Virus record (IMG/VR): IMGVR_UViG_3300036785_000671
Location: 1 to 50,966 of that record
Direction: 5' to 3' (one strand)
Length of the DNA: 50,966 bases
Source of the DNA: a virus
Positions 27,859 to 41,317 of the stretch are shown piece after piece. The translations under genes were made by a program, and so were the position numbers. The stretch's first letter is position 1; every line of letters starts with the position of its first letter. The notes below the pieces were generated by a model. It did not search any database. It was not told the origin of the DNA and was given only the letters and a program-made list of their open reading frames with translations.

Positions 27859-29847
27859 TTATTTTTTTAACTGCCCCCAATTAGGACCACACTTTACATC
27901 AGTCAACATTGGAATGGTAATTACCGGCATAGCTTCTTCCATAATACGAGCACATTCCTTTGCTTGTTTCATATCAGTCAAGCTAAAACACAATTCATCA
28001 TGCAGTTGTAACACTGGTTGATATCCAGCTTTAACAAGATCTAACATGGCCTTCTTCGTTTGGCGTGCAGCACTCCCTTGAATCATTCTATTAAATGCTT
28101 TATGAACATGTGCTCGTTTTATTGGTTGACCATACCATGAATGATTAGGGTTACGTGTACGTCTAATGGCTTCATCATAAGGACATGCATATGGTACTCC
28201 TGGTTCTGTAAAATCACGATACTCAATTGGTTCAAATAAATTAAAGTGATTACGAGCACCATCTATCAATTTTATATATCCGTGCTTTGCAGCATAGTTC
28301 ATATATCGATCTGATGCTTCACGAACAAATGGTAGTTCAGCATCATACTGATTATAAACATCCCTTGCCTCATCTTCATCCATCCCTGTCATTAAAGCAA
28401 ACTTCCTAATTCCAGCTCCATAAGCTTTTGCGAAGTTAGTATCCTTGGCGCGGGGGCGCTCAAGCCTAGTGATCTGTGCTACGTAATTATGAAAGTCTGT
28501 AGAAGGATCATTACGATACCGGTCAGCCGCTTTCTTTGCGCCACGCGCACGTAATAGTTCTGCTACGAATACGATTAACCGGTATTCTTGCTGTCTATAG
28601 TCGATGCTGCACCAGAATTCCCCCTCTTCTGGTAGAAAGCAAGACCGTACAAGCGGAGCCCATGCATCATCCCTGCTAGGCATCTGCTGTAAGGGTGGGT
28701 CCGAGTAGCTAAACCGATGGCTTTTAGCTCCACCAGTTTCTGACTTGAATTGATTAATCGTTGGGTGTACTCTTCCATTATGAGCATATGCTACTATGAA
28801 TTTTTGTAAGAATTTGTCTGCTAGATCTGCTTGGTGCTTTATCTTTTGAACCATTCTTGGAAACCAGTGTCGATGACCTGTCATGACACTTTTATCAAAT
28901 TTAGGATTTTTCTTTGCAGTAAATTCTTCAATTCGTATATCTAATTGTTCAAACTTCTTTTTTACCCATCGACTAGATCTAATATCTTTTAGACTAATGG
29001 GAGGAGGGAGAGTACGGCCAAAGAAATCTTGTTGAGTATTTCGTTGTATCTTAATGCCTTCTTCTTCTAATAGGTTTGCCATGATTTCAGAATCTTTATA
29101 ATTTTGTTCTTCTACACTCTTCATTATTTCTTTAGCTCTTAACGTGCTAACACGAATTCCCTTTTGCTTCATTCTTAATGTAATAGGCATTAACTCACGT
29201 TCAACTTGATATGCTGCATTAAGATTTTCTTCTTCTAAAATAGGAAGCAGCTTATAATAGAGTTCTAGTGTGCTTATCGCATCTTGTTCAGCATAATCAC
29301 CCACCATTTCTGGTGGAAGTTTATAGAGTTCATTTTTTGAAACATTCAGTTTCTTTTTCCCTGGAACCTTTTGCCATTCACAAAGGCTATCTAGATCGAA
29401 TGAAAATCTATTTTCATCAATAATAGAAGCCATTGCCATGGTATCATCTATAAGTGCAGGAGGTGGTATATCAAACATTGCTTGAATCCAACCCCAATCA
29501 TATTGAAAATTGTGAAATATAAACCGGGTATGATTCTGGGCAACTAATGATTTTAGCCATTGCCCCACTAATGCCCGATTAAAATAATTTCTGCTTGCAT
29601 GTCGAAGTGGGATGTAGACTTTTTCATTACGCCATGCTGCTGATATCCCACAAATATATCCCGTATTATTGTCATATTGATCACATTTAAAAAATCCTGG
29701 TCCTTTATTTGCTCTTAAACCAGGGTCGAAAGTTTCTGTATCGATTGATACTTCAGTTTCGTGCGTAAGATCAGGAAGCTCAGTAGGCATAATCCATTCA
29801 GAAGGGGTGTAGATATGTTTGTCTTCTACGATTGACCGCATTAACAT
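27859..29847 (-). CDS. DNA polymerase I family (family A)
   Basis: A 662-residue family A polymerase without a 5'-3' exonuclease domain. The 3'-5' exonuclease domain shows Asp 36/Glu 38 (SIDTETF), HNFQYD (Asp 117) and YAEQD (Asp 189). The polymerase domain has motif A DYRQQEYR (416-423), motif B R464...K468..NF...YG477, and motif C HDE (616-618). Phe 472 lies in the O-helix position that discriminates against dideoxynucleotides when replaced by Tyr. This is the likely replicative polymerase of the phage. The ATG overlaps the GIY-YIG gene by 7 nt. Confidence 0.95.
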   Translation of the reverse strand: MLMRSIVEDKHIYTPSEWIMPTELPDLTHETEVSIDTETFDPGLRANKGPGFFKCDQYDNNTGYICGISAAWRNEKVYIPLRHASRNYFNRALVGQWLKSLVAQNHTRFIFHNFQYDWGWIQAMFDIPPPALIDDTMAMASIIDENRFSFDLDSLCEWQKVPGKKKLNVSKNELYKLPPEMVGDYAEQDAISTLELYYKLLPILEEENLNAAYQVERELMPITLRMKQKGIRVSTLRAKEIMKSVEEQNYKDSEIMANLLEEEGIKIQRNTQQDFFGRTLPPPISLKDIRSSRWVKKKFEQLDIRIEEFTAKKNPKFDKSVMTGHRHWFPRMVQKIKHQADLADKFLQKFIVAYAHNGRVHPTINQFKSETGGAKSHRFSYSDPPLQQMPSRDDAWAPLVRSCFLPEEGEFWCSIDYRQQEYRLIVFVAELLRARGAKKAADRYRNDPSTDFHNYVAQITRLERPRAKDTNFAKAYGAGIRKFALMTGMDEDEARDVYNQYDAELPFVREASDRYMNYAAKHGYIKLIDGARNHFNLFEPIEYRDFTEPGVPYACPYDEAIRRTRNPNHSWYGQPIKRAHVHKAFNRMIQGSAARQTKKAMLDLVKAGYQPVLQLHDELCFSLTDMKQAKECARIMEEAMPVITIPMLTDVKCGPNWGQLKK

Positions 29848-30188
29848 GGGTTATGTTCCTTCCATGGACCTATGAAATCAAGACGAGCCTGTTGATAAGC
29901 TGCACGACCATCTTCTTCTATTACATAGACACTAGGGCTTTTATCAATAGCCATTCGTAAAGCAGAAGTTGATTTAAACCATTCACGATAAATGCGAAGA
30001 TGTTTGAATTTTTGATGCCACAACTGTTCTGTTTTATAATCACCATATATTAATTTGATGAGTTTTACTGGAAATGGACAGCTACTTGCTATATGATCTA
30101 AGCGTTCATTTGGATTTGTGCTCCAACCAATTTTAATGCGATTTGTTCCTATTGCTTCAATGAAGTAAATGTATCCTAAAGATTCCAT
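29841..30188 (-). CDS. GIY-YIG-like protein (MUG113/T5orf172 type)
   Basis: A 115-residue protein from ATG 30188. GYIYFIEA ... RIKIGWSTNPNERLDHIASS ... DYKTEQLWHQKFKHLRIYREWF has the GIY-YIG nuclease layout of the T5orf172/MUG113 family: 'GYIY', 'KIGWS.NP..R', late Glu and Phe-x-Phe. It could act as a homing-type or repair endonuclease beside the polymerase. A longer start at GTG 30266 is possible and has an AAGGG upstream, but adds 26 residues of basic low-complexity sequence and runs through the 17-bp repeat. Confidence 0.6.
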   Translation of the reverse strand: MESLGYIYFIEAIGTNRIKIGWSTNPNERLDHIASSCPFPVKLIKLIYGDYKTEQLWHQKFKHLRIYREWFKSTSALRMAIDKSPSVYVIEEDGRAAYQQARLDFIGPWKEHNPC

Positions 30189-30247
30189 GGGGTGTTTGCC
30201 TGGGGGGTATTGCCGTTTAAGACGTCTTCGTGAGCCCCACAAGTGCC

Positions 30248-30264
30248 GTTGCAGTGCCACTAAC
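30248..30264. repeat. 17-bp repeat, copy 2
   Basis: Exact second copy of the 17-bp sequence at 23901-23917, here just upstream of the GIY-YIG-like gene. The surrounding bases differ between the copies. Confidence 0.6.
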
Positions 30265-30275
30265 ACCCTACGCCC

Positions 30276-30509: not shown

Positions 30510-30954
30510 GGTGTCCTCCATCTTCTGGTGTGCCGGGACGATTAGGCTCTATCACTCTTGGAATTTTTTCATCTAATCTAGCTAGGTCGATAATATCTTC
30601 CAACACTAATTGTGCTGTTCTAAGATCATCGTCACTTTTATAAGAACTAAGCAAGAAGATAAATTCTTCTTCCACTATACTCAAACCATTTGCTACGGAG
30701 AAGCGACTTACCTCATAGTGGATTTCAGTTCGTATTAACTTTCGCACTGGATTATGTGGATAGGTTTCCATAAGCTTGTCGAGGTAATGCATTGCTTTGT
30801 GAAGATCATCTATACCACCTTTCTTCCGCCATCGTGCGACGTATTTGGTTGAGGATCCCTCTAAGTATCCAAGAGGAATGACTATACATAGATCCCAGTG
30901 CTCGTACTGAGTCTTATAGTGTTTTCCTCCCACTTGCTTTTCATTAGCGGACAT
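30463..30954 (-). CDS. DUF3310 family protein
   Basis: A 163-residue protein whose first ~65 residues carry the DUF3310 signature: VGGKHYK, an EHWDL, GYLEGSSTKYVARWRKKGG and DDLHKAMHYLDKL. This small domain is widespread in phages close to nucleotide-metabolism and DNA-modification genes; its role is unknown. The C-terminal ~100 residues are helical and acidic. The ATG overlaps the stop of the HD-domain gene by one base. Confidence 0.75.
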   Translation of the reverse strand: MSANEKQVGGKHYKTQYEHWDLCIVIPLGYLEGSSTKYVARWRKKGGIDDLHKAMHYLDKLMETYPHNPVRKLIRTEIHYEVSRFSVANGLSIVEEEFIFLLSSYKSDDDLRTAQLVLEDIIDLARLDEKIPRVIEPNRPGTPEDGGHHANQSMEELEERKEE

Positions 30955-31484
30955 TAGATGCTGCTCCCTCTATTTCTGAGCCATTGGTTAACGTTCATGG
31001 ACATGCATGATTCACTCGCTAGACGTTGAGCTTCGTACATTGTATCTCTCATTATAGCTTCTGCGTACTTGTTACCTAGATTCATTTCATGTTCACCAGT
31101 TTCATGCATCTCCAGCAGATCACATATTTTTACTTGGATTCTTTCTTCTTTAGTTAGTTCTGGAAGCCGGAGTTCAAGTTGTCGTAAGCCAATAGCTTCA
31201 CCCTTTTCCATTCCTTCTTTTAGCTCAGGAATTTGTTTCTTAATGCTATAGGGAACATCCCCCGCCCATAGTTCACCACTATCATGATGCAGGCAATAAT
31301 AGAGTACTTCTGCACGAGGAATTCCAAACACTTCTGTGAATATACAAGCGACGCGCCAGCAATGATGTCCGACCGTCTGCTCCTTTATCATAGGCCAAGT
31401 ATGATATCGCTTGACACATCCAGCTAAGTATCGAGAACTATAGATATTGTGGCGGTCAATCACGACATCCTCCTTCTTATCCAC
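30954..31484 (-). CDS. HD-domain 5'-nucleotidase-like phosphohydrolase (YfbR type)
   Basis: A 176-residue HD hydrolase. VKRYHTW (24-30), VGHHCWRVA (39-46), LHHDSGELWAGD (65-76) give the metal-binding His/His-Asp/Asp set and the Arg typical of YfbR-like deoxyribonucleoside 5'-monophosphatases. It would act on dNMPs to reshape the nucleotide pool, for example removing a canonical pyrimidine or its monophosphate. It overlaps the 3' end of the thymidylate-synthase-family gene by 25 nt, supporting a shared pathway. Confidence 0.75.
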   Translation of the reverse strand: MDKKEDVVIDRHNIYSSRYLAGCVKRYHTWPMIKEQTVGHHCWRVACIFTEVFGIPRAEVLYYCLHHDSGELWAGDVPYSIKKQIPELKEGMEKGEAIGLRQLELRLPELTKEERIQVKICDLLEMHETGEHEMNLGNKYAEAIMRDTMYEAQRLASESCMSMNVNQWLRNRGSSI

Positions 31485-32464
31485 TCAGTACCAGCCTTCC
31501 GCCAGTCTTCTGCAATAACTTCTTCTATCTTTTCTAAAGCCCCACCTATATCTTTTTTCTTATATAGATAATGCGCCTCAGCCATAGGTAGAACAACCTG
31601 TGCTAAAAATGGATTAGTGATATTTCCGCTATAAGCTTCTTCGTCCTTGTGTATGTCTTCTATCCATTGCATAGTTTCTTCCAATTCATTGTCAAACGAT
31701 TCAGGATATTTAATAAGAGGCTGTGTTCCTTCATAATCCCATCCATTCTTTAAAGCCACATATAAATTTCCTGTTGATCCAATTCGCTTCTGTAACATCG
31801 CCAGATGTTCTGTATAAAAATGTAGGTTAGTTGATATCTGCCAATATCGACCTACTTCAACCCCTACCATGCTCGCTATATATTCCTGCATCATTGGGAA
31901 ATGAACTGCGTTGGCACCACAGCATCCCCATATTAAATCATTAGACCGATTAAACACAGTCATGTCTAATTTCTTAGCATTGTTTAGAATACGAAATGTA
32001 GCTACAAGATTACAGGGTTTGATAATACTCGGTGTCACTAAATCACCATCCCACATTTGAAGTACAGCTTGCCGGGTAGAAGGGTTTCTTTTCAACTGCT
32101 TAATGATTTCACGCAGTTGATCGTATCCTAACTGAGTTCTCCACCTATGCCCGTATGCATCTGGGATTATACCATGTTCATCCCCATAGTTTTTACTGAA
32201 ATCTTTGATATAATAGTCCAGAAATTCCCCATCATTTCTACCTGCAAGCATCCACATAGCTTCCATTAAATGAAAGAAGGGATTCGCATCTCTTACTTCA
32301 TTTACTAGAACATGCTGTTTAGGATACTCATAGCGAATACTAACTGGTGATGGACTAACCCAAGCATCACCATTCCTGGTCTTTTCTTTATTACCAGAAT
32401 GTAAAACGTGTCGAACTGCTTTCGGAAGTGCATCCCTCACGTTAGCCGCATTTATCATATACAT
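31460..32464 (-). CDS. Thymidylate synthase family pyrimidine (hydroxy)methylase
   Basis: A 334-residue protein; I choose ATG 32464 because GGGGGAG lies seven bases upstream. The family motifs are AYGHRWR (103-109), RQAVLQMW (131-138), catalytic Cys 151 in the variant KPCNL (PCN instead of PCH), NRSNDLIWGCCGANAVHFP (172-190) and HFYTEHL. Asn 185 occupies the place where thymidylate synthases have Asn and dCMP hydroxymethylases Asp, so dUMP is the likelier substrate. Next to modification genes it may make 5-hydroxymethyl-dUMP rather than dTMP; methyl versus hydroxymethyl cannot be told from these motifs. It overlaps the nucleotidyltransferase by 23 nt. Confidence 0.8.
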   Translation of the reverse strand: MYMINAANVRDALPKAVRHVLHSGNKEKTRNGDAWVSPSPVSIRYEYPKQHVLVNEVRDANPFFHLMEAMWMLAGRNDGEFLDYYIKDFSKNYGDEHGIIPDAYGHRWRTQLGYDQLREIIKQLKRNPSTRQAVLQMWDGDLVTPSIIKPCNLVATFRILNNAKKLDMTVFNRSNDLIWGCCGANAVHFPMMQEYIASMVGVEVGRYWQISTNLHFYTEHLAMLQKRIGSTGNLYVALKNGWDYEGTQPLIKYPESFDNELEETMQWIEDIHKDEEAYSGNITNPFLAQVVLPMAEAHYLYKKKDIGGALEKIEEVIAEDWRKAGTEWIRRRMS

Positions 32465-33134
32465 GTGTTTCTCCCCCTTCCAATACGATGCGTGCACCAC
32501 TCAACTTTACATCACGTGGAGTTCCCCAGTCTATTGGGGTATAGAGTGTTTGCTGAGCTTCTTTTTCACATATCATAAGATCAAACACATGGCTCAAATA
32601 AGGTTCTGAATATCCTTCACACACCTCCCCTAAAATAGTCATAAACTGTGGGACTGCATCAGGAGCCACGAAGTAAGCACCTCGCACAGCATATTCAGAT
32701 ATCCGTTCCTTTTCTTTAATACGTGAAAAATTGTGAAGCTTATCAACATAGGAAAAGGCCGGATTAGCACTTCGACTTACCAGCACTCCAATACCGGTAC
32801 GAAGTTCTGTTAATAACGAAAGATCATTGGTAGAATTGAGTATATCAGAATCCATTATTAAACATGACTGAGGGCCTATGGATTCTAAAACCTTCTTGGT
32901 AGTTTCTGCGGGACCCTTTGTATCAACAATTTGAACCCATCCTCGACTACACTTATATCGAGGAGGAACTGCTGCAACTACATGTATCAATTCCCAAGGA
33001 ACTGTATGAACTACATGTTCAATCATTGGCATAGTTGTGCCTTGCCACATGATATCAATAAACGGTTTGGGAGTCATGTATCCATCTTCCCGAAACCTCT
33101 TGCTCTGTCCAGCCGCTAGGATAATCACATGCAT
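32442..33134 (-). CDS. Sugar-phosphate-type nucleotidyltransferase
   Basis: A 230-residue GT-A/NTP_transferase protein. The N-terminus IILAAGQSKRF ... TPKPFIDI is the nucleotide-binding loop of NDP-sugar pyrophosphorylases and LicC/IspD-like cytidylyltransferases (Arg 13, Lys 23). IMDSDIL (Asp 95, Asp 97) is the metal site. It would join an NTP to a phosphorylated sugar, amino alcohol or similar acceptor. The upstream gene, overlapping by 80 nt, is a small-molecule kinase, so the pair can make an activated NDP-linked donor for the glycosyltransferases next to them. Substrate unknown. Confidence 0.75.
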   Translation of the reverse strand: MHVIILAAGQSKRFREDGYMTPKPFIDIMWQGTTMPMIEHVVHTVPWELIHVVAAVPPRYKCSRGWVQIVDTKGPAETTKKVLESIGPQSCLIMDSDILNSTNDLSLLTELRTGIGVLVSRSANPAFSYVDKLHNFSRIKEKERISEYAVRGAYFVAPDAVPQFMTILGEVCEGYSEPYLSHVFDLMICEKEAQQTLYTPIDWGTPRDVKLSGARIVLEGGETHVYDKCG

Positions 33135-33801
33135 TTTCTAACTCCTTGCTTACCCTGGTTGCCCATTGGGTCGCGCTGTCAAAGATATCCCTTTTAGCGA
33201 TTCGTTGTAAAGCGACCATTGCCCAGAAGACTGCTCTTCTTGCAGTATCATAGTCCTGCATAAAATTAGGCCATTCATATGATATCTTTTCATGACCACG
33301 TAGTACGACTTCCCACCCAAGAAAAGACTGAAGCATTTTACCATGATCTACTGCCACTATGCTCGGTTTCCTTAGCCATAGTTTTGGGATAGGGTCAATT
33401 AACCTCATGAACCCATCCTTTGTTATCATTACATTATCCAGTGTTGGGTCCCCATGTATTAAGGAACGGCTCCATACATGCTGTTCCAAAAATCTTTCTA
33501 ACACTAATAAGGAATCAAAATTATGCTCAATAGGATACAAATACTCCATGCAATAAGCACCGTCGTATACCATAAGGATCTTTGGACAAACGTGTTCCCC
33601 CAAATATCCCATGAACCGGGCTTGATCCTCGGCATATCCTGGTGGGCGCATTCTTTTGAAGACAGCCACACAGATTTCTGCATCACTATACCCATGCATT
33701 TCTGTTGCGAAATGGGGCGTAGGAACGTAGTCTGCCTTGTATTTTAGCGAAATCTCAGCTAACTGCCGTAGCTTCGATTTGAGCTCGGTAGCGTCGGCCA
33801 T
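33055..33801 (-). CDS. APH/choline-kinase-fold small-molecule kinase
   Basis: A 248-residue protein with the aminoglycoside phosphotransferase/choline kinase core: LIHGDPTLDNVMI (His 116, Asp 118, Asn 123) and LIDPIP (Asp 136). The ATP-lobe is short, and its Lys is not obvious to me. Such kinases phosphorylate a hydroxyl of a small molecule. The overlap with the nucleotidyltransferase on one side (80 nt) and a glycosyltransferase on the other (47 nt) suggests the product is activated and then transferred, as in LicA/LicC-type pairs. The acceptor is unknown. Confidence 0.7.
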   Translation of the reverse strand: MADATELKSKLRQLAEISLKYKADYVPTPHFATEMHGYSDAEICVAVFKRMRPPGYAEDQARFMGYLGEHVCPKILMVYDGAYCMEYLYPIEHNFDSLLVLERFLEQHVWSRSLIHGDPTLDNVMITKDGFMRLIDPIPKLWLRKPSIVAVDHGKMLQSFLGWEVVLRGHEKISYEWPNFMQDYDTARRAVFWAMVALQRIAKRDIFDSATQWATRVSKELENACDYPSGWTEQEVSGRWIHDSQTVY

Positions 33802-34567
33802 CCTCTAGTGCCTTCTGCCACTGAACTATCACCTCTACCCTTGGCGTACTCGCCTTATACGCACGTTCTACAGTAGAAACATAGCTTGGAAATAGTTCCT
33901 TCAGTTTATGAGCTTCAGCATTTGAAATTTCTACTGTGCGTTCAAAACTAGTTCCACCCGGTTTATCATATCCACGCTGGTCCACGACCGTTGTGTGATA
34001 CACCGCATTAGGATAACCCTTCACCAATAACTGCAACGCCAATTCCATATCTTCCCGCAGCGCAATTCGCCGGAAAACGCATTCCTTTATGACCACCGGT
34101 AGATAGTATCCTAGAGCATAGCACATCTTACCGGGTGATTTCCAGCCGACTTCTTCTAGCTGGTTATTTCCTTGCCGCTGACCAAATCCTGCATGTGGTG
34201 TTTCTGGGCTAAGTCTTTCAGCAATACGTTCGAACTCTGGTATTAATTCTTCGCCTTTTATTTCCCGTAAGTGCCAATCTGTTTCACTAATACGGGTGGC
34301 AAACCGCAAGTCATCATCTAACATAATGATCTTTTCTTCCCCACGCCTATGAAATTCCTCTAATATCCAGGCACGTTTATCACCAATTTTCATATCTGGA
34401 TCAGGTTGTGGGATGTATTCTGGCACGCCAGAAACATATTGAGCTGATAATTTAAAGATTTCTTTCTTTGGGGCGACAATGGTAGTTTGTTCCCTCAGTA
34501 CCTTCGGCAACATGCTGAGGGTTAACTGCTGGTCTGTACGACCGCGAGTTGGTATTACTATCCGCAT
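33755..34567 (-). CDS. Glycosyltransferase, TET-associated-GT-like (copy 1)
   Basis: A 270-residue GT-A fold protein. IVIPTRGR at residues 3-10 is the nucleotide-binding start. IIMLDDDLRF holds the metal-binding DDD (84-86). A late acidic helix (REDMELALQLL) and DKPGGTSFE complete the pattern. Sequences of this kind are known from phages with hypermodified DNA, where they are thought to transfer a sugar to a hydroxymethylated base. The 34630 gene shares the same four blocks, so the two are paralogues. Sugar donor and base acceptor are unknown. Confidence 0.65.
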   Translation of the reverse strand: MRIVIPTRGRTDQQLTLSMLPKVLREQTTIVAPKKEIFKLSAQYVSGVPEYIPQPDPDMKIGDKRAWILEEFHRRGEEKIIMLDDDLRFATRISETDWHLREIKGEELIPEFERIAERLSPETPHAGFGQRQGNNQLEEVGWKSPGKMCYALGYYLPVVIKECVFRRIALREDMELALQLLVKGYPNAVYHTTVVDQRGYDKPGGTSFERTVEISNAEAHKLKELFPSYVSTVERAYKASTPRVEVIVQWQKALEDGRRYRAQIEATAVS

Positions 34568-34629
34568 TTTAAGTGGCCTCTATGTTTACCCTAACATGGT
34601 GGAATTCACTTTACAAGTTCAAAGGCAGT

Positions 34630-35376
34630 CTACCCACAGTCTATACCACCTTGACGCATTGCTTCCTTCCATTTATACTTAACATGACGTGGCCCTGGAT
34701 CTACAATGCCTCCCCAATATTGCTTGAGTAAATTGTGAGCCTCATCAAGGACCTGTTGATTGCGCCAATCACTGCAACCTCCGGGGCGGTCGGACTTACT
34801 CATCTTACTAAATTCTGTACTGACAGCGGTTTTTATCCCCCGTGTGAGAAATTGTAGATGCACATCGTGCTCTTCATCATGTGGCACACGAAAAGCAGGC
34901 CATGGATCTGGGAATAAATCCCGATTGTATCCGTGGATATCATTAAACCGAGTACATTCTTTGAATTCCCTAGGGGTAAGATGGCTCCATGCCTTATCTA
35001 CCAGACCTACCATGGGGTATCTGTCTAGTAGATCGAACATGGCCCCGATCATACGTTCTGTGGCTTCTATTTCGTATGGCTGAATACGGGCAAATTTTGA
35101 ATCTGATAGACGTTGGTAGAAGGCAAGGTCATCATCTATCATAATTACCTTACCGGTATTTCGCATGTGTAGAATAAACTGTCGGGTGGGACCAATACCA
35201 TATGCATCACATGGTGTGATATGAACATCCGGAAAAGCTTCTTGGTACAATTCTACTTGTTCAGGTGGAACTACAAGTGTCACGTAATGCCATAGCCGTC
35301 TAGAAAGATTCATAAGCGACTTTTGCTTGTAGTGCCTGGACCGGGAAGGAATCACAATCTGTAGATCACCGAACAT
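34630..35376 (-). CDS. Glycosyltransferase, TET-associated-GT-like (copy 2)
   Basis: A 248-residue protein from ATG 35376, chosen for a GGAGG five bases upstream; longer starts up to 35451 are open. IVIPSRSR (7-14), VIMIDDDLAF (DDD 81-83), an acidic helix (DEEHDVHLQFL) and DRPGGCSDWRNQ mirror the blocks of the 33755 protein. It would be a second sugar transferase acting on the same or a derived base. It overlaps the thymine pyrophosphorylase-like gene by 11 nt, and 62 nt separate it from the other transferase. Confidence 0.65.
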   Translation of the reverse strand: MFGDLQIVIPSRSRHYKQKSLMNLSRRLWHYVTLVVPPEQVELYQEAFPDVHITPCDAYGIGPTRQFILHMRNTGKVIMIDDDLAFYQRLSDSKFARIQPYEIEATERMIGAMFDLLDRYPMVGLVDKAWSHLTPREFKECTRFNDIHGYNRDLFPDPWPAFRVPHDEEHDVHLQFLTRGIKTAVSTEFSKMSKSDRPGGCSDWRNQQVLDEAHNLLKQYWGGIVDPGPRHVKYKWKEAMRQGGIDCG

Positions 35377-36277
35377 TTGGCCCTCCATGTTTGAACGTTT
35401 GCCGTGGGCGGCCCCATCCATTAACTGTCTTCGTATACTTGCTCCATTCACAAAGACAGTTTTGTAGGTCTTGGTTGTGCAGGCGTTCCATTCCCATGCT
35501 ATTCAGCTTTGGGTTTATCCGATTGCTCAATAGCGTAAGTTCTTGCAGCCATTGACCCTTCGGCCATGGTTCCTCCATAGGACGTTCTAATACAATGTTC
35601 AAACCGCGCATACTTCCCGGTCCAGGAGTAGCCCAAGACCACCAATCTTTTGCTTCTTGCATGAATGGTAGATACTTGAGGTCTGCTACAAGCTGTCCAG
35701 TCATAAAGCTTCCCAGACCCTCATTCTGTAACCATTCAAACATTTCACATAGCAATGGAGAATGCGTTTGCCATGCTTCAAACGTCCTTCGCCAGCTCTT
35801 TTGAACACACCATTGATGAATGTAGTGGCAGACGCCTTCTCCTTTAGGAAACCCTGGCTTCCCGGTGATGATAAAGGAACCGGTTACATGAGGAGTGGGA
35901 AGTTTTAGTATAAGATCTGTTAGTATAGTAACATCATTGTGATTAATATACTTTTCAAATACAGATTCGTTATCAAGCAGAGGTTCATTAAAAAGAGCAT
36001 CACAAGTGCTAATACGATTAAACCAACGATAGGCCACCGTCGCAGGAAATACGATAGCATCCTCGGTATATCTGTTACGGATAGATCGCTGATAATGTTT
36101 GGATACAGCATCGTCTTCCCTATGTACATTTGTGAACCTATATTCTTGTAGAATAGGGTCTTTAGTCCATGGCGGTGGGTCACTTCTTTCAAACCTGCGA
36201 AACCGTATGGTTTCGCGTTCGAATATAAAAGCCACGAATCTGTCTATGGGGTCATTGATTTCTGTGATGTGTACCAT
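35366..36277 (-). CDS. Thymine-hypermodification protein (aGPT-PPlase / 5-hmdU kinase helical domain)
   Basis: A 303-residue helical protein. FIFERETIRFRRF (17-29), PPPWTKDPILQEYRFTNVHR (34-53), and a late PGPGSMRGLN (~224-233) match the alpha-glutamyl/putrescinyl-thymine pyrophosphorylase / 5-hmdU DNA kinase helical-domain family, a glycosylase-related fold found in phages that replace thymine with elaborate derivatives. Known relatives act on 5-hmdU in DNA, either fused to a P-loop kinase or by installing the side group. No P-loop is visible here. This is the strongest indicator that the cluster hypermodifies thymine. Confidence 0.75.
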   Translation of the reverse strand: MVHITEINDPIDRFVAFIFERETIRFRRFERSDPPPWTKDPILQEYRFTNVHREDDAVSKHYQRSIRNRYTEDAIVFPATVAYRWFNRISTCDALFNEPLLDNESVFEKYINHNDVTILTDLILKLPTPHVTGSFIITGKPGFPKGEGVCHYIHQWCVQKSWRRTFEAWQTHSPLLCEMFEWLQNEGLGSFMTGQLVADLKYLPFMQEAKDWWSWATPGPGSMRGLNIVLERPMEEPWPKGQWLQELTLLSNRINPKLNSMGMERLHNQDLQNCLCEWSKYTKTVNGWGRPRQTFKHGGPNVR

Positions 36278-36675
36278 GGCACGAACTTTAGGATTTCCTT
36301 AGGGTCGAAGCGAGGATCAGACCAGTTGCCATTGAATGGTATACAACGATCATCTATTGTGATGAACGCACTTGGCTTTTCTGCCACGAAACGTAGTCTT
36401 TCTGCCAGAGTACTATCTGGTCCTGCGTGTTGTTTAACATAGTGATACATGGCAAGTCTACCATCTGCATCAGAAGATCGAGCAGAAAATATGCAAATGT
36501 CAAAGTGTACTAGAGCAGTTTCTAACCATTCTATTACTCCTGGAACCGGTGGATCCGGTATTATATTAGCACCCCGCCAGCCTGATGTATAGCTATGGAC
36601 ACAGCCATCGAAATCCAGCAGCAGGATTAGCTTCCCTTGTGGTTTTCGCCGAGGGTCAGTCGAAGAGCTGTCCAT
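36244..36675 (-). CDS. HAD-superfamily phosphatase
   Basis: A 143-residue HAD phosphohydrolase: LLLDFDGCVHS (nucleophile Asp 21, Asp 23), IFSARSS as motif II and ITIDDR as motif IV. It is short, with little cap domain, like phosphatases found beside phage DNA-modification or polynucleotide-kinase genes. It overlaps the pyrophosphorylase-like gene by 34 nt and the UvrD-like gene by 20 nt. It may remove a phosphate left by the modification chemistry or process a phosphorylated precursor. Confidence 0.7.
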   Translation of the reverse strand: MDSSSTDPRRKPQGKLILLLDFDGCVHSYTSGWRGANIIPDPPVPGVIEWLETALVHFDICIFSARSSDADGRLAMYHYVKQHAGPDSTLAERLRFVAEKPSAFITIDDRCIPFNGNWSDPRFDPKEILKFVPWYTSQKSMTP

Positions 36676-38581: not shown

Positions 38582-39379
38582 TTAGAAGGGGATTTCAGAC
38601 TCTGTACTCCCCGCCTCTTCGTGCCTTGCATCGGGAGCTGCGGCTTTCTTTTCACCCTTACGAACTGCCATGCATAAGGCTTTGGCTTCGCTGTATTCAG
38701 TCTTATTCACAAACCCTTCATCCTGGAACTTAAGACCGAACCACTTACCGATAGCGTTGCTCGCAGGAATCGTGGTTAACCGGTATCTTCGGCTGAAGCT
38801 CGGCAAGAAGTCATTGGTTTGGGGGTGCTTAAACTGTTTGTAGAAGGTGTTCCATTGCCGAGCGAAGGTATGTTTTGTCCCACTACATGGAAGAACGTAG
38901 GGCTGTCCGTCCACAAGCAAGAAAAATTCCCTTGTGTCCTGGATTACGTTCCCATTTTCACCACGAACAAGGACTTGCTTTTCACGACCATCATCCCCGC
39001 GTACCATACTGGTCTTCATATCAAGGGGCGGGGCATCATGTCTTGCAACAAATCCCTGCCGGTTAGGAAGCCACTCGATCCATGTGCGCTGCATTTCACA
39101 TGGAATCACAATGATTCCTTCTTCGCCGTTTTTGATAGGTTCTAGGGCATTTCGCAGCCAAAAGTCACCCGGTTCGGCTCCCTCGATATGATTATCCCCA
39201 CGCTTGTCAACAGCCGGGGAATTTGTCTGGAGGACGTATATAAGAGGAAGTAGTTGGTCTTCAGGCTTGAAACTGATGCCCATTCCGGCATCGCCCTTGG
39301 TAACTTCCATTAAGTCGTCTGGAAGTTGAGCTTTGCTCGTAGTCAACGCTGTGCTGGACTCTTTCGGTTCTTTAGCCAT
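38582..39379 (-). CDS. SSB-like protein with acidic EIPF tail
   Basis: A 265-residue protein; ATG 39379 is chosen because AGGAG lies eight bases upstream. Its end, EEAGSTESEIPF, resembles the acidic Phe-terminated tip of single-stranded-DNA-binding proteins (DDDIPF). The body (LLPLIYVLQTNSP, GIIVIPCEMQRTWIEWL, REFFLLVDGQPYVL, a late Trp/Phe-rich helix) is beta-rich and belongs to a phage family I have seen near replication genes without a named domain. It has its own promoter at 39484. ssDNA binding is an inference from the tail and the context. Confidence 0.5.
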   Translation of the reverse strand: MAKEPKESSTALTTSKAQLPDDLMEVTKGDAGMGISFKPEDQLLPLIYVLQTNSPAVDKRGDNHIEGAEPGDFWLRNALEPIKNGEEGIIVIPCEMQRTWIEWLPNRQGFVARHDAPPLDMKTSMVRGDDGREKQVLVRGENGNVIQDTREFFLLVDGQPYVLPCSGTKHTFARQWNTFYKQFKHPQTNDFLPSFSRRYRLTTIPASNAIGKWFGLKFQDEGFVNKTEYSEAKALCMAVRKGEKKAAAPDARHEEAGSTESEIPF

Positions 39380-39483
39380 TGTCATCACTCCTGGTTCCAC
39401 AGAACCTCTTCGCCGGGCGCTTACAGTCGCCCCTACAGTTTGAAGCACGTCTATTCGTACTGGCGAAAGATTCTGCTGCGGGT
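39380..39483 (-). other. Leader between promoter and SSB-like gene
   Basis: About 100 nt read on the - strand from the likely start site near 39477 to the SSB-like gene. It holds a GC-rich inverted segment (GCGCCCGGCG around 39412-39421) and no reading frame of its own. It ends in the AGGAG ribosome-binding site. Confidence 0.35.
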
Positions 39484-39512
39484 AGCGTAAACCAAAAACC
39501 TATAGAGCGCCA
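39484..39512 (-). promoter_or_regulatory. Sigma70-like promoter
   Basis: On the - strand: TGGCGC (-35), 17 bp, TACGCT (-10). The spacer sequence and -10 are nearly the same as in the promoter at 43844, so it belongs to the same repeated family. It drives the SSB-like gene and probably the operon after it. Confidence 0.6.
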
Positions 39513-39514
39513 CA

Positions 39515-39889
39515 TCAAATATTCTTCAAGCTATCATTTAACGAGCTTTCTGCTATTTTTTCATTAGCAGCTACCCGTTTCACATATCCAGCAATACGCT
39601 TCAATCGCTTGTGAAAGTCTTGTGTCATAGGTAATATCACACAAGCGCACGAATGTTCATAGCTAGAAGCGTGCTCTAGCCATGTATCCCGGGACTTCAC
39701 ACTCCTGCTGGATTCGACCAGCAATGCCTTTCCTTTCTTGCCTGGTTTTGTCGGAAGCTTCCGTCCTATACACACGTATTCTATAGGATTAAGCCGATTG
39801 AACATTTGCCAGAGGGCCTTGCCTTTCCCTCCACATAGAGGGCAGTTTGGCAATGGCTTCCGCCTCCAGCCGGGTGGCAGGCTGCTCAT
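39515..39889 (-). CDS. Hypothetical protein with zinc-knuckle-like start
   Basis: A 124-residue basic protein; ATG 39889 has an AAAGGA ribosome-binding site six bases upstream, so a frame from 39934 is not needed. CPLCGGKGKALW (near residue 16) followed by a Cys in YVCIG could form a zinc ribbon, with further CAC at ~83-85. The C-terminal half is helical and Lys/Arg-rich. Function unknown. A ~235-nt structured leader precedes it. Confidence 0.5.
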   Translation of the reverse strand: MSSLPPGWRRKPLPNCPLCGGKGKALWQMFNRLNPIEYVCIGRKLPTKPGKKGKALLVESSRSVKSRDTWLEHASSYEHSCACVILPMTQDFHKRLKRIAGYVKRVAANEKIAESSLNDSLKNI

Positions 39890-39894
39890 TTTCT

Positions 39895-40124
39895 GTTCCT
39901 TTGGTAGGGGGTGGCCTAGGTGCGCGGGGCGCAATCTAAGCCATGGGCGGCCACGCTAGGGGCGTGGGAGCGCGTCAAAACAAGGTGGGCTGGCCAGCCC
40001 GTAGTTCTGCATCGTAGCCATCTGGTGCGGCATTCGCGCCGTAACACGTTTTCGTCGCGCAACTACTTCGGTGCAGCTAAAGCATGGGGTGGACCAATTT
40101 GGGCTCAGTCCATTACTACGCTGC
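39895..40124 (-). ncRNA. Candidate structured RNA or long 5' leader
   Basis: Between the promoter at 40131 and the 39889 start codon lies ~230 nt with no frame on the transcribed strand that I trust. Its predicted 5' end coincides with an arm (40125-40116) that pairs with 40017-40008: TGCA and CGTAG against CTACG and TGCA, with one mismatch. Further inside or downstream are a 5-bp TGGAC/GTCCA hairpin, CGGC/GCCG (40028-40041), the perfect palindrome GGGCTGGCCAGCCC (39987-40000), a 6-bp CCACGC/GCGTGG hairpin (39951-39967) and TGCGC/GCGCA (39921-39933). No terminator T run is visible, so it may be a leader. Confidence 0.5.
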
Positions 40125-40130
40125 AACCTT

Positions 40131-40159
40131 AGTAAAGCAAAATAGCTTACGGAGCGCAA
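40131..40159 (-). promoter_or_regulatory. Sigma70-like promoter
   Basis: On the - strand: TTGCGC (-35), 17 bp, TTTACT (-10). The whole element, including several upstream bases and the second half of the spacer (ATTTTGC), is nearly identical to the promoter at 40707. It drives the structured leader and the 39889 gene. Confidence 0.75.
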
Positions 40160-40166
40160 GTTCAAA

Positions 40167-40679
40167 TTATTTCGTGTATTTTCTGATGTATTCACCAACC
40201 TCCTTGATATGTTCAATCAAGGTGTCCCTTGATTTCCTCGCTTCGGCTGGTGATTGGGAATAGATTTCCTTGATAAGATCGACGCAGTGCTTCTGAACCT
40301 TCTGAAGCTTAGACTTGGGTTCAGGACGGGGGTTATTGCTGACAAGCCGTAAGGCGTCATTCACACTTAAATATCGTTGGGGAGATTCCGCAGCTAGCTC
40401 TAGAATTTCCTTACGATTTTCGAAGAGCCTCATCCAACTGCTGGCGGTGCTGTGACTGAATTCAAAGTGTTGCTTCAACCACGAAATCCACTTGCCGTAG
40501 AGCACCTTTCGTTTAGCCTTTGTAAGATGTTCCCCGGCACTGATAGCACTCCTTAAAGCGTCATGTGATGATTCGATAGCATCCCTGGCACAGATAGTAA
40601 TCTTTTCGACCAAATCATCCAGGTCAGCCTTATTCCTTTCAGTGCAGTAGAGTAGAGCAGTTTCTGTATTCGGTTGCAT
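40167..40679 (-). CDS. DUF3102 family protein, possible DNA-binding
   Basis: A 170-residue helical protein; ATG 40679 has AGGAGG eight bases upstream (the ATG at 40685 is too close to it). AGEHLTKAKRKVLYGKWISW ... FEFSHSTASSWMRLFENRKE is the DUF3102 pattern: a helix, a 'G.W..WL' turn and a helix-turn-helix-like 'S..TA..WMRL'. Members are often found with ParB-like or replication genes. It may bind DNA to regulate replication or transcription. Confidence 0.65.
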   Translation of the reverse strand: MQPNTETALLYCTERNKADLDDLVEKITICARDAIESSHDALRSAISAGEHLTKAKRKVLYGKWISWLKQHFEFSHSTASSWMRLFENRKEILELAAESPQRYLSVNDALRLVSNNPRPEPKSKLQKVQKHCVDLIKEIYSQSPAEARKSRDTLIEHIKEVGEYIRKYTK

Positions 40680-40706
40680 GTTCATTCCTCCTAGCTTAAG
40701 GATAAA

Positions 40707-40735
40707 AGTAAAGCAAAATATTCCATGGAGCGCAA
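40707..40735 (-). promoter_or_regulatory. Sigma70-like promoter
   Basis: On the - strand: TTGCGC (-35), 17 bp, TTTACT (-10), start near 40700, then a 20-nt leader with AGGAGG before the DUF3102 gene. Twin of the promoter at 40131. Confidence 0.75.
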
Positions 40736-40744
40736 GTTCAAATT

Positions 40745-41317
40745 TTATCCCTGCTTGATCTTTACTTCATCAAAGACATATGCTCCTAAAAGATCCATTG
40801 GGACTACATGATTTCTTTGGAGTTCACCTTTGATAAATGCTTTGAGTGTCATATGATGAACTGATTCATTGGTATAGTATTGAATATGATTTTCAGTCAA
40901 AAGCTTCATTACCTTGAGTCTTTCTTCATGTTCTTGCATTCCAAATTGAATTGTGATAACTGATTTCACCAAATCACCATGACCGGCAGCTTCAAACCAG
41001 TTCAAGGCTTCTAAACGGCGTTCGTCAGGTATCTTAGCCCCATATACTGTTGAACGTTGAGCAATGAATCCAGGGTGATTGCCATCGGGTTCTACAGTAA
41101 TGCTAGAAAGATTAGCATCATTAAACATGTCGATAAGTTCATGGCGTTCAACATGGGAAATTTTCCCATTGAGTTCCACTATTTGATTTTCCAAATCTGT
41201 CTTACGTAACTGGAGGTCCCGTAATTCCACAGCCTTCTTACGTATAATGTTAAGGTCTGTTACTTTAGCTGGGACCGGGTCTGTCGCAACTTCGTCTAAG
41301 ATTTCTTGCTCGGACAT
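40745..41317 (-). CDS. Conserved-type phage hypothetical protein with coiled coil
   Basis: A 190-residue protein. Residues ~20-60 form a coiled coil (RKKAVELRDLQLRKTDLENQ, then IVELNGKISHVERHE). A compact alpha/beta domain follows (SSITVEPDGNHPGFIAQRST ... ALNWFEAAGHGDLVKSVITI ... MKLLTENHIQYYTNESVHHM). The layout is seen in replication-region phage proteins, but I cannot name it; a Gam-like end-binding protein is one thought, not supported by a motif. AAGGA precedes the ATG. Confidence 0.55.
   Translation of the reverse strand: MSEQEILDEVATDPVPAKVTDLNIIRKKAVELRDLQLRKTDLENQIVELNGKISHVERHELIDMFNDANLSSITVEPDGNHPGFIAQRSTVYGAKIPDERRLEALNWFEAAGHGDLVKSVITIQFGMQEHEERLKVMKLLTENHIQYYTNESVHHMTLKAFIKGELQRNHVVPMDLLGAYVFDEVKIKQG

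Follow-up and report, generated by a model that had tools for sequence, protein, structure and literature searches.

Amino-type hypermodified thymine is made by phages such as M6, ViI, and phiW-14; hmdU is phosphorylated in DNA, and the phosphate is then replaced by an amine or amino acid. Phage T6 has an enzyme of the TAGT family that acts on glucosyl-hmC in DNA and attaches a further glucose to it (PMC13216743). Sugar attachment is described for cytosine in phages, and for thymine we found no demonstration in the literature. The MupP-AmgK-MurU enzymes are a HAD phosphatase, an APH-fold kinase, and a nucleotidyltransferase. Together they are outlined as a peptidoglycan-sugar salvage pathway yielding a UDP-sugar (PMC5371407, PMC5371409). 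Here we analyzed a viral DNA stretch of 50,966 nt (IMG/VR record IMGVR_UViG_3300036785_000671, hereafter the window). One of its gene clusters probably makes a glycosylated thymine, namely hmdU bearing one or two sugars, one of which would come from a three-enzyme supply line encoded by the phage.

The cluster consists of eight minus-strand ORFs (30954-36675), all found where the initial annotation had placed them. Adjacent ORFs overlap by 11-80 nt when the start of the second glycosyltransferase (GT2) is taken as 35376, and the sole gap, of 62 nt, separates GT2 from GT1; the compact leftward arrangement described earlier was thus confirmed. Many independent IMG/VR contigs carry orthologues arranged in this order, mostly with 44-73% protein identity, indicating that the eight ORFs are genes and not chance ORFs. 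A DUF3310 protein (PF11753; 30463..30954, minus strand) is a constant neighbor whose position is kept in relatives. A family A DNA polymerase (PF00476, 1.6e-41; 27859..29847, minus strand) is the constant downstream neighbor, with synteny kept in relatives as well as in phage Pam3. A megablast search of 13 kb against phages gave no match. The source is an uncultured tailed phage whose compact gene set most likely puts hydroxymethyluracil in place of thymine in its DNA.

The synthase gene (31460..32464, minus strand; the ORF opens at 32500, and 32464 is the likely start) encodes a thymidylate-synthase fold (PF00303, 3e-29, Pfam). Its residues were compared with those of SPO1 gp29, annotated as a dUMP hydroxymethylase, and of E. 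coli ThyA, whose row agrees with PDB alignments. The catalytic Cys146, Tyr94, and the dUMP-reading Asn177 are kept, and the protein departs from thymidylate synthase at Trp80 (Ser) and His147 (Asn), positions at which gp29 has Gly and Asn. It therefore shows the features of a gp29-type dUMP hydroxymethylase: a Cys nucleophile, a uracil-type Asn, and loss of the Trp80 and His147 of thymidylate synthase. The nearest named synthases are those of Pseudomonas phages (39-40%) and SPO1 gp29 (35%); among the matches listed, ordinary phage thymidylate synthases reach about 20-30%. Because the synthase has the residues that separate the SPO1 enzyme from thymidylate synthase, its active site suggests that the starting product is likely hydroxymethyl-dUMP. 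The thymine (uracil-5) route of the initial annotation is supported.

Alternatively, the synthase could be a thymidylate synthase of the ordinary kind, or else a dCMP hydroxymethylase, with the TAGT enzymes glycosylating cytosine in T-even style. The best-known TAGT enzymes come from hmC systems (PMC13216743), and the homologue in Brevibacterium phage LuckyBarnes was named a dCMP-hydroxymethylase by the authors describing that phage (PMC6588365). Against this, the base-reading residue is Asn, as for uracil, in the window synthase, the LuckyBarnes homologue, and all relatives. The T-even type has Asp at this position, as does the CMP hydroxymethylase MilA, and where the window synthase departs from thymidylate synthase it agrees with SPO1 gp29. 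We consider this alternative very unlikely. No C5-cytosine methyltransferase (PF00145) was found, in a search in which 10 of 14 controls gave a match, and TET (PF12851) gave no match in the window or in any control; an hmC route via TET therefore appears less likely.

The neighboring HD-domain protein, a YfbR-like 5'-deoxynucleotidase (30954..31484, minus strand), matches PF12917 above the cut-off (31.1 bits, Pfam) and also the phage dATP triphosphohydrolase family phrog_7076. Its gene adjoins the synthase gene in nearly all relatives. We propose that it lowers dTMP and dTTP so that hmdUTP is used.

The 303-aa protein encoded at 35366..36277 (minus strand) belongs to PF18723 (HMUDK_hel; 118.4 bits against a cut-off of 25, E 4.9e-34, Pfam), as the initial annotation had anticipated in setting membership of a PF18723-type family as its test. 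The earlier label of aGPT-PPlase/5-hmdU-kinase helical protein held in part: PF18723 comprises the helical proteins that accompany the hmdU kinase, whereas the transferase family also covered by the name aGPT-PPlase is now PF18724 (ADDT), for which no match was obtained. An AF2 model, built from window and IMG/VR sequences only, had a pLDDT of 91.5 and suggested a DNA-glycosylase-like fold. Its top structural match was PUGT of phage PaMx11 (8z2n, Z 9.9), followed by DUF2419 and HhH DNA glycosylases (Z about 6-9.7); Foldseek gave none below E 0.001, and a profile search of solved structures gave nothing significant. The gene adjoins the hmdU kinase in kinase-type phages, whereas it adjoins glycosyltransferases here. 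The protein may be a base-presenting partner that recognizes or flips hmdU in DNA. In the literature we found no tested role for PF18723 in systems that lack the kinase; the present cluster suggests one.

Neither the hmdU DNA kinase (PF18748) nor the amino acid:DNA transferase (PF18724) gave a match in the window, a 75-kb twin record, or a 78-kb relative; the window and the twin record may both be incomplete, and a kinase may lie elsewhere. In the PF18748 search Pam3 matched, Epa5 matched weakly, and a distant contig (L043) matched also; both Pam3 and Epa5 matched PF18724. These results point to a sugar and not an amino side chain. If the M6, ViI, and phiW-14 route operated here, the transferases and the nucleotidyltransferase would supply an amino alcohol. 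PF18723 and an hmdU synthase are indeed common to such phages, and Pam3 has both in the same order, together with the kinase and ADDT. Since neither enzyme was found in the three records searched and two glycosyltransferases stand in their place in the window, we regard an amino-type product as highly improbable. Of the sugar- or amino-alcohol-type derivative first suggested, the sugar half is favored; an amino-alcohol or amino-acid product is not supported, given the lack of PF18748 and PF18724 matches in the window and the twin record.

GT1 (33755..34567) and GT2 (34630..35376), both on the minus strand, are members of the TAGT DNA-glycosyltransferase family PF20691, scoring 56.3 bits (5.5e-15) and 64.3 bits (1.9e-17) against a curated cut-off of 27.5 (Pfam). 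The GT2 ORF opens at 35451, and the likely start at 35376 is supported by a ribosome-binding site, GGAGG, upstream and by orthologues. The DDD motif by which both proteins had been recognized as glycosyltransferases (D84-D85-D86) is invariant across 24 TAGT rows. From their family, GT1 and GT2 may transfer sugar to modified DNA. GT1 orthologues are present in minimal clusters that have no donor module (L008, L013, L015), whereas GT2 orthologues were not found without it.

The remaining three genes, all on the minus strand, could make the sugar donor. The 230-aa nucleotidyltransferase-like protein (32442..33134) matches NTP_transf_3 (PF12804) weakly, and all six orthologues examined match this family (best 3e-8). 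Its profile matches the archaeal sugar-1-phosphate nucleotidylyltransferase 5z09 at 3e-6, one orthologue (L024) matches TIGR03992 at 8.6e-10, and the MurU model gives E=0.014 only. By profile, the protein appears closest to sugar-1-phosphate nucleotidyltransferases. A CDP-choline-type route, combining an APH kinase with a cytidylyltransferase, was also considered and is less likely, given this profile and a glycosyltransferase as partner. The 248-aa putative sugar kinase (33055..33801) has a weak APH match, and four of six orthologues match APH (best 5e-5). Relative to most orthologues it is shorter by an internal segment of about 37 aa, and the alignment shows that the catalytic HGDxxxDN and DP are kept; its structural model is poor (pLDDT 58) and shows just the kinase-fold core. 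The 143-aa HAD protein (36244..36675), a putative sugar-phosphate phosphatase, has a weak family match and motif residues D21, D23, S64, K100, D108, and D109 that are invariant in five orthologues. Profile searches of solved structures with the kinase and HAD proteins gave nothing significant.

Relatives of the cluster come in two forms. The minimal form has PF18723, one TAGT, the synthase, and the HD enzyme, and the full form adds GT2, the kinase, the nucleotidyltransferase, and the HAD phosphatase. Among 12 complete, distinct loci, these four genes are all present in five and all absent in seven, with none mixed; the HAD gene occurs only in loci that also hold the other three. On the synthase tree their presence switches six times, with supported branches forcing at least three of the switches. 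On the distant contig L043, the APH gene, an unrelated HAD-like ORF, and the nucleotidyltransferase gene are adjacent to one another in this same setting. The all-or-none presence in relatives suggests that the four genes form one separable module. Named phages were searched with the nucleotidyltransferase and the kinase, yielding either nothing or a single short match; none of them was thus found to have the module. A search of genome contigs with the nucleotidyltransferase gave just four remote MAG matches (25-38%, partial length).

That the module is dispensable in relatives could also mean that DNA is modified by GT1 and the synthase alone, while GT2 and the kinase, HAD, and nucleotidyltransferase proteins target a small molecule or the surface of the host, with surface polysaccharide or superinfection exclusion as examples. 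Capsule sugar pathways typically contain sets of a kinase, a HAD protein, and a nucleotidyltransferase. However, GT2 is in the same DNA-glycosyltransferase family as GT1, and in every case the module surrounds PF18723 and the hmdU synthase within a region of replication genes, a setting that L043 keeps. We therefore judge a host-surface role unlikely.

For the preferred glycosylated thymine, we propose the following pathway. The active-site residues strongly suggest that the synthase converts dUMP to 5-hydroxymethyl-dUMP; the HD nucleotidase would remove competing thymidine nucleotides, and hmdU would enter DNA. With hmdU recognized or flipped by the PF18723 protein, GT1 may place a first sugar, taken from a donor of the host, on the hydroxymethyl group. 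Following the logic of MupP-AmgK-MurU, the HAD phosphatase, APH kinase, and nucleotidyltransferase could convert a sugar phosphate to an NDP-sugar, from which GT2 may move the sugar onto the first sugar or onto hmdU. The resulting thymine would resemble base J or bear a disaccharide, and would protect the DNA against restriction enzymes and DNA glycosylases. More tentatively, and with less confidence than in glycosylation as such, we suggest a disaccharide whose outer sugar comes from the phage supply line, with PF18723 as an exchangeable hmdU-presenting subunit that serves the kinase or glycosyltransferases depending on the phage. The cluster would offer a case of TAGT acting on hmdU and links two worlds of DNA hypermodification.

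The locus shares with the thymidine hypermodification systems of M6/PaMx11, ViI, phiW-14, and Pam3 a dUMP hydroxymethylase, an HD nucleotidase, and PF18723, in the same order beside the DNA polymerase as in Pam3 and PaMx11. It differs in having two TAGT enzymes and a sugar-activation module in place of PF18748 and PF18724, neither of which was detected in the window; this agrees with the earlier expectation of an end product unlike the known ones. The likeness to MupP-AmgK-MurU lies in how the donor genes would work rather than in demonstrated sequence membership. T-even glucosylation, including the T6 TAGT (beta-glucosyl-HMC-alpha-glucosyltransferase; PMC13216743), likewise uses two successive DNA glycosyltransferases and the PF20691 family. 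In the window, however, both enzymes are TAGT, donor synthesis is phage-encoded, and the hydroxymethylase is of the uracil type (Asn), which argues for hmdU rather than hmC. T-even TAGT members act on cytosine-linked sugars, whereas direct action on hmdU is predicted here. LuckyBarnes gp38-gp41 comprise an hmdU-type synthase, two TAGT enzymes, and PF18723 side by side; a kinase, nucleotidyltransferase, and HAD of the window type do not adjoin them, and the product there is likewise predicted. Because this already isolated phage carries the core, the question is testable there. Base J belongs to the class of product predicted here, hmU in DNA that carries a sugar, and the present product, if true, would be its virus counterpart. 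In contrast to base J, the viral hmU would arise from a synthase before replication and not from JBP oxidation of thymine, and the modification is predicted to be probably genome-wide, with more than one sugar.

All eight leftward ORFs of the initial annotation (30954-36675) were present as described, with overlaps of 11-80 nt and one 62-nt gap. Pfam searches confirmed the YfbR-like HD protein (30954..31484), the thymidylate-synthase fold (synthase, 31460..32464), two TAGT-family (PF20691) glycosyltransferases, GT1 (33755..34567) and GT2 (34630..35376), and the PF18723 HMUDK_hel protein (35366..36277). The APH match of the kinase (33055..33801) was weak, and NTP_transf_3 in the nucleotidyltransferase (32442..33134) was below the Pfam cut-off. 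The likely starts of GT2 (35376) and the synthase (32464) each have a ribosome-binding site. A UvrD-like helicase gene lies upstream; downstream lie genes for a DUF3310 protein, a family A DNA polymerase and, between these two, a GIY-YIG-type protein (T5orf172/MUG113, 29841-30266). The window, an IMG/VR virus record of 50,966 bases, also contains tail sheath, baseplate and endolysin matches of a contractile-tailed phage. Upstream of the cluster, Pam3 gp34 and gp33 family proteins (38582-41317) connect the phage with replication modules of the cyanophage Pam3 type.

IMG/VR relatives showed two architectures. The gene order of minimal loci (L003, L006, L008, L011, L013, L014 and L015; L012 is a duplicate of L011) was helicase, PF18723, one TAGT, synthase, HD, DUF3310 and polymerase. 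The full order was helicase, HAD, PF18723, GT2, GT1, kinase, nucleotidyltransferase, synthase, HD, DUF3310 and polymerase; it was complete in the window, L005, L007, L009 and L048, and incomplete but consistent in L017, L024, L037, L042, L045 and others. HAD, GT2, kinase and nucleotidyltransferase, here called the module, were all present in five of the 12 complete distinct loci and all absent in seven. Mapped onto the synthase tree, presence or absence of the module must switch six times, and supported branches force at least three of these switches, which indicates repeated gain or loss of the module as one unit. In the minimal cluster of L003, a methyltransferase that by eye resembles FkbM (L003:2064-2804) lies between PF18723 and TAGT and perhaps methylates the sugar. 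By eye, small ORFs inserted inside or beside the modification cluster (L014:3703-4101 and L004:9098-9637) look like HNH homing endonucleases.

The synthase was aligned with SPO1 gp29 (annotated as dUMP hydroxymethylase), the Pam3, PaMx11 and LuckyBarnes enzymes, and E. coli ThyA, whose row agrees with PDB alignments. The window synthase retains Arg21, Glu58, Tyr94, Cys146, Arg166, Asp169, Asn177, His207 and Tyr209, but Trp80 and His147 are replaced by Ser and Asn, respectively. Trp80 is likewise missing from every one of its phage relatives, gp29 included, and these too have Asn at 147. The roles of these residues are established in the thymidylate synthase family; Asn177 reads uracil, and the cytosine-type enzyme MilA has Asp at this position. 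The best named matches were Pseudomonas phage synthases and SPO1 gp29, above ordinary phage thymidylate synthases. Because of the gp29-like residues, Asn177 and these matches, the product is likely hmdUMP. Similar glycosyltransferases were found in only two named phages: the metagenomic MW202897 (TAGT, pyrimidine HMase and HD) and Brevibacterium phage LuckyBarnes (gp41 synthase, gp40 and gp39 TAGT, gp38 PF18723). A dCMP-hydroxymethylase was suggested in the LuckyBarnes announcement (PMC6588365); gp41 (L028:6436-7989), a 517-aa protein with a long C-terminal extension, probably acts on dUMP, since it has the uracil-reading Asn.

The 35366 protein was assigned to PF18723 (118 bits; Pfam cut-off, 25) and not to an unrelated family. 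The initial label, aGPT-PPlase/5-hmdU-kinase, was right as to the helical family and needs one correction, as current Pfam separates the hmdU kinase (PF18748), its helical partner (PF18723) and the amino acid:DNA transferase (PF18724). Pam3 and PaMx11 encode PF18723, PF18724 and a P-loop kinase, whose PF18748 match was clear in Pam3 and weak in PaMx11. Neither PF18748 nor PF18724 was found in the window or in a 75-kb record of the same phage with identical proteins; Pam3 and Epa5 matched both. The confident PF18723 model (pLDDT 91.5) aligned best with PUGT of phage PaMx11 (8z2n; Z 9.9, 218 residues, 4.1 A), followed by DUF2419 and many HhH DNA glycosylases. A PUGT/HhH DNA-glycosylase-like fold is likely but not proven, because Foldseek alone gave no significant match for the model and middling Z scores come easily to helical folds. 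The PF18723 gene directly adjoins the kinase gene in Pam3, PaMx11 and Epa5, and TAGT genes in the window group, L020, L021 and LuckyBarnes; among the latter, PF18748 had no match in those records that were searched, a set without L021. Given these alternative neighbors, the PF18723 protein may present hmdU to whichever enzyme comes next. Sugar enzymes were repeatedly seen beside PF18723: an NAD-dependent sugar epimerase (PF01370) and a GT-B glycosyltransferase follow the PF18723/synthase locus of L018 (L018:11433-14651), and a weak GT4-type match lies immediately upstream of PF18723 in L022 (L022:8739-9998).

The DDD motif of GT1 and GT2 was invariant across 24 sequences. The best-known TAGT member, the T6 enzyme, adds a second glucose onto glucosyl-hmC (PMC13216743). 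A cytosine acceptor formed via a TET route is unlikely here, because the searches found no C5-cytosine methyltransferase (positive controls matched) and no TET enzyme (no positive control matched). The minimal clusters L008, L013 and L015 contain GT1 orthologues (53-58% identity); a host-supplied donor is therefore presumed for GT1, and GT2 was found only together with the module. This distribution is the main argument for a two-step scheme in which GT1 would place a sugar on hmdU and GT2 would then add a module-made sugar. Gene content, families, residues, synteny and co-occurrence were observed directly, and all the chemical steps, the sequence in which GT1 and GT2 act, the PF18723 role and the kind of donor are inferred. 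Phage SP-15 carries sugars on dihydroxypentyluracil, a different uracil derivative (PMC5977210); a full-text literature search, whose scope did not include several key papers, found no report that shows sugar-decorated thymine in phages.

The module would supply the second donor. The nucleotidyltransferase profile matched an archaeal sugar-1-phosphate nucleotidylyltransferase (5z09, 3e-6), and the L024 orthologue matched TIGR03992 (8.6e-10). All HAD (36244..36675) motif residues were invariant. The window kinase retains HGDxxxDN and the following DP and lacks about 37 residues, just before the catalytic loop, that most orthologues have; it may still be active in this shorter form, or be losing its function. 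In the distant locus L043 (IMGVR_UViG_3300005548_000017), a kinase, a HAD-like ORF with no detectable relation to the window HAD, and a nucleotidyltransferase are adjacent, in the same place as in full loci. This locus (L043:8598-12821) also has two glycosyltransferases, a PF18748 hmdU kinase and a SAM methyltransferase, and the ORF immediately before its synthase resembles, by eye, a protein of uracil-DNA-glycosylase type. MupP (HAD), AmgK and MurU (nucleotidyltransferase) form a salvage route to a UDP-sugar. The HAD, kinase and nucleotidyltransferase of the window appear to resemble this route in logic, as a likeness of working only.
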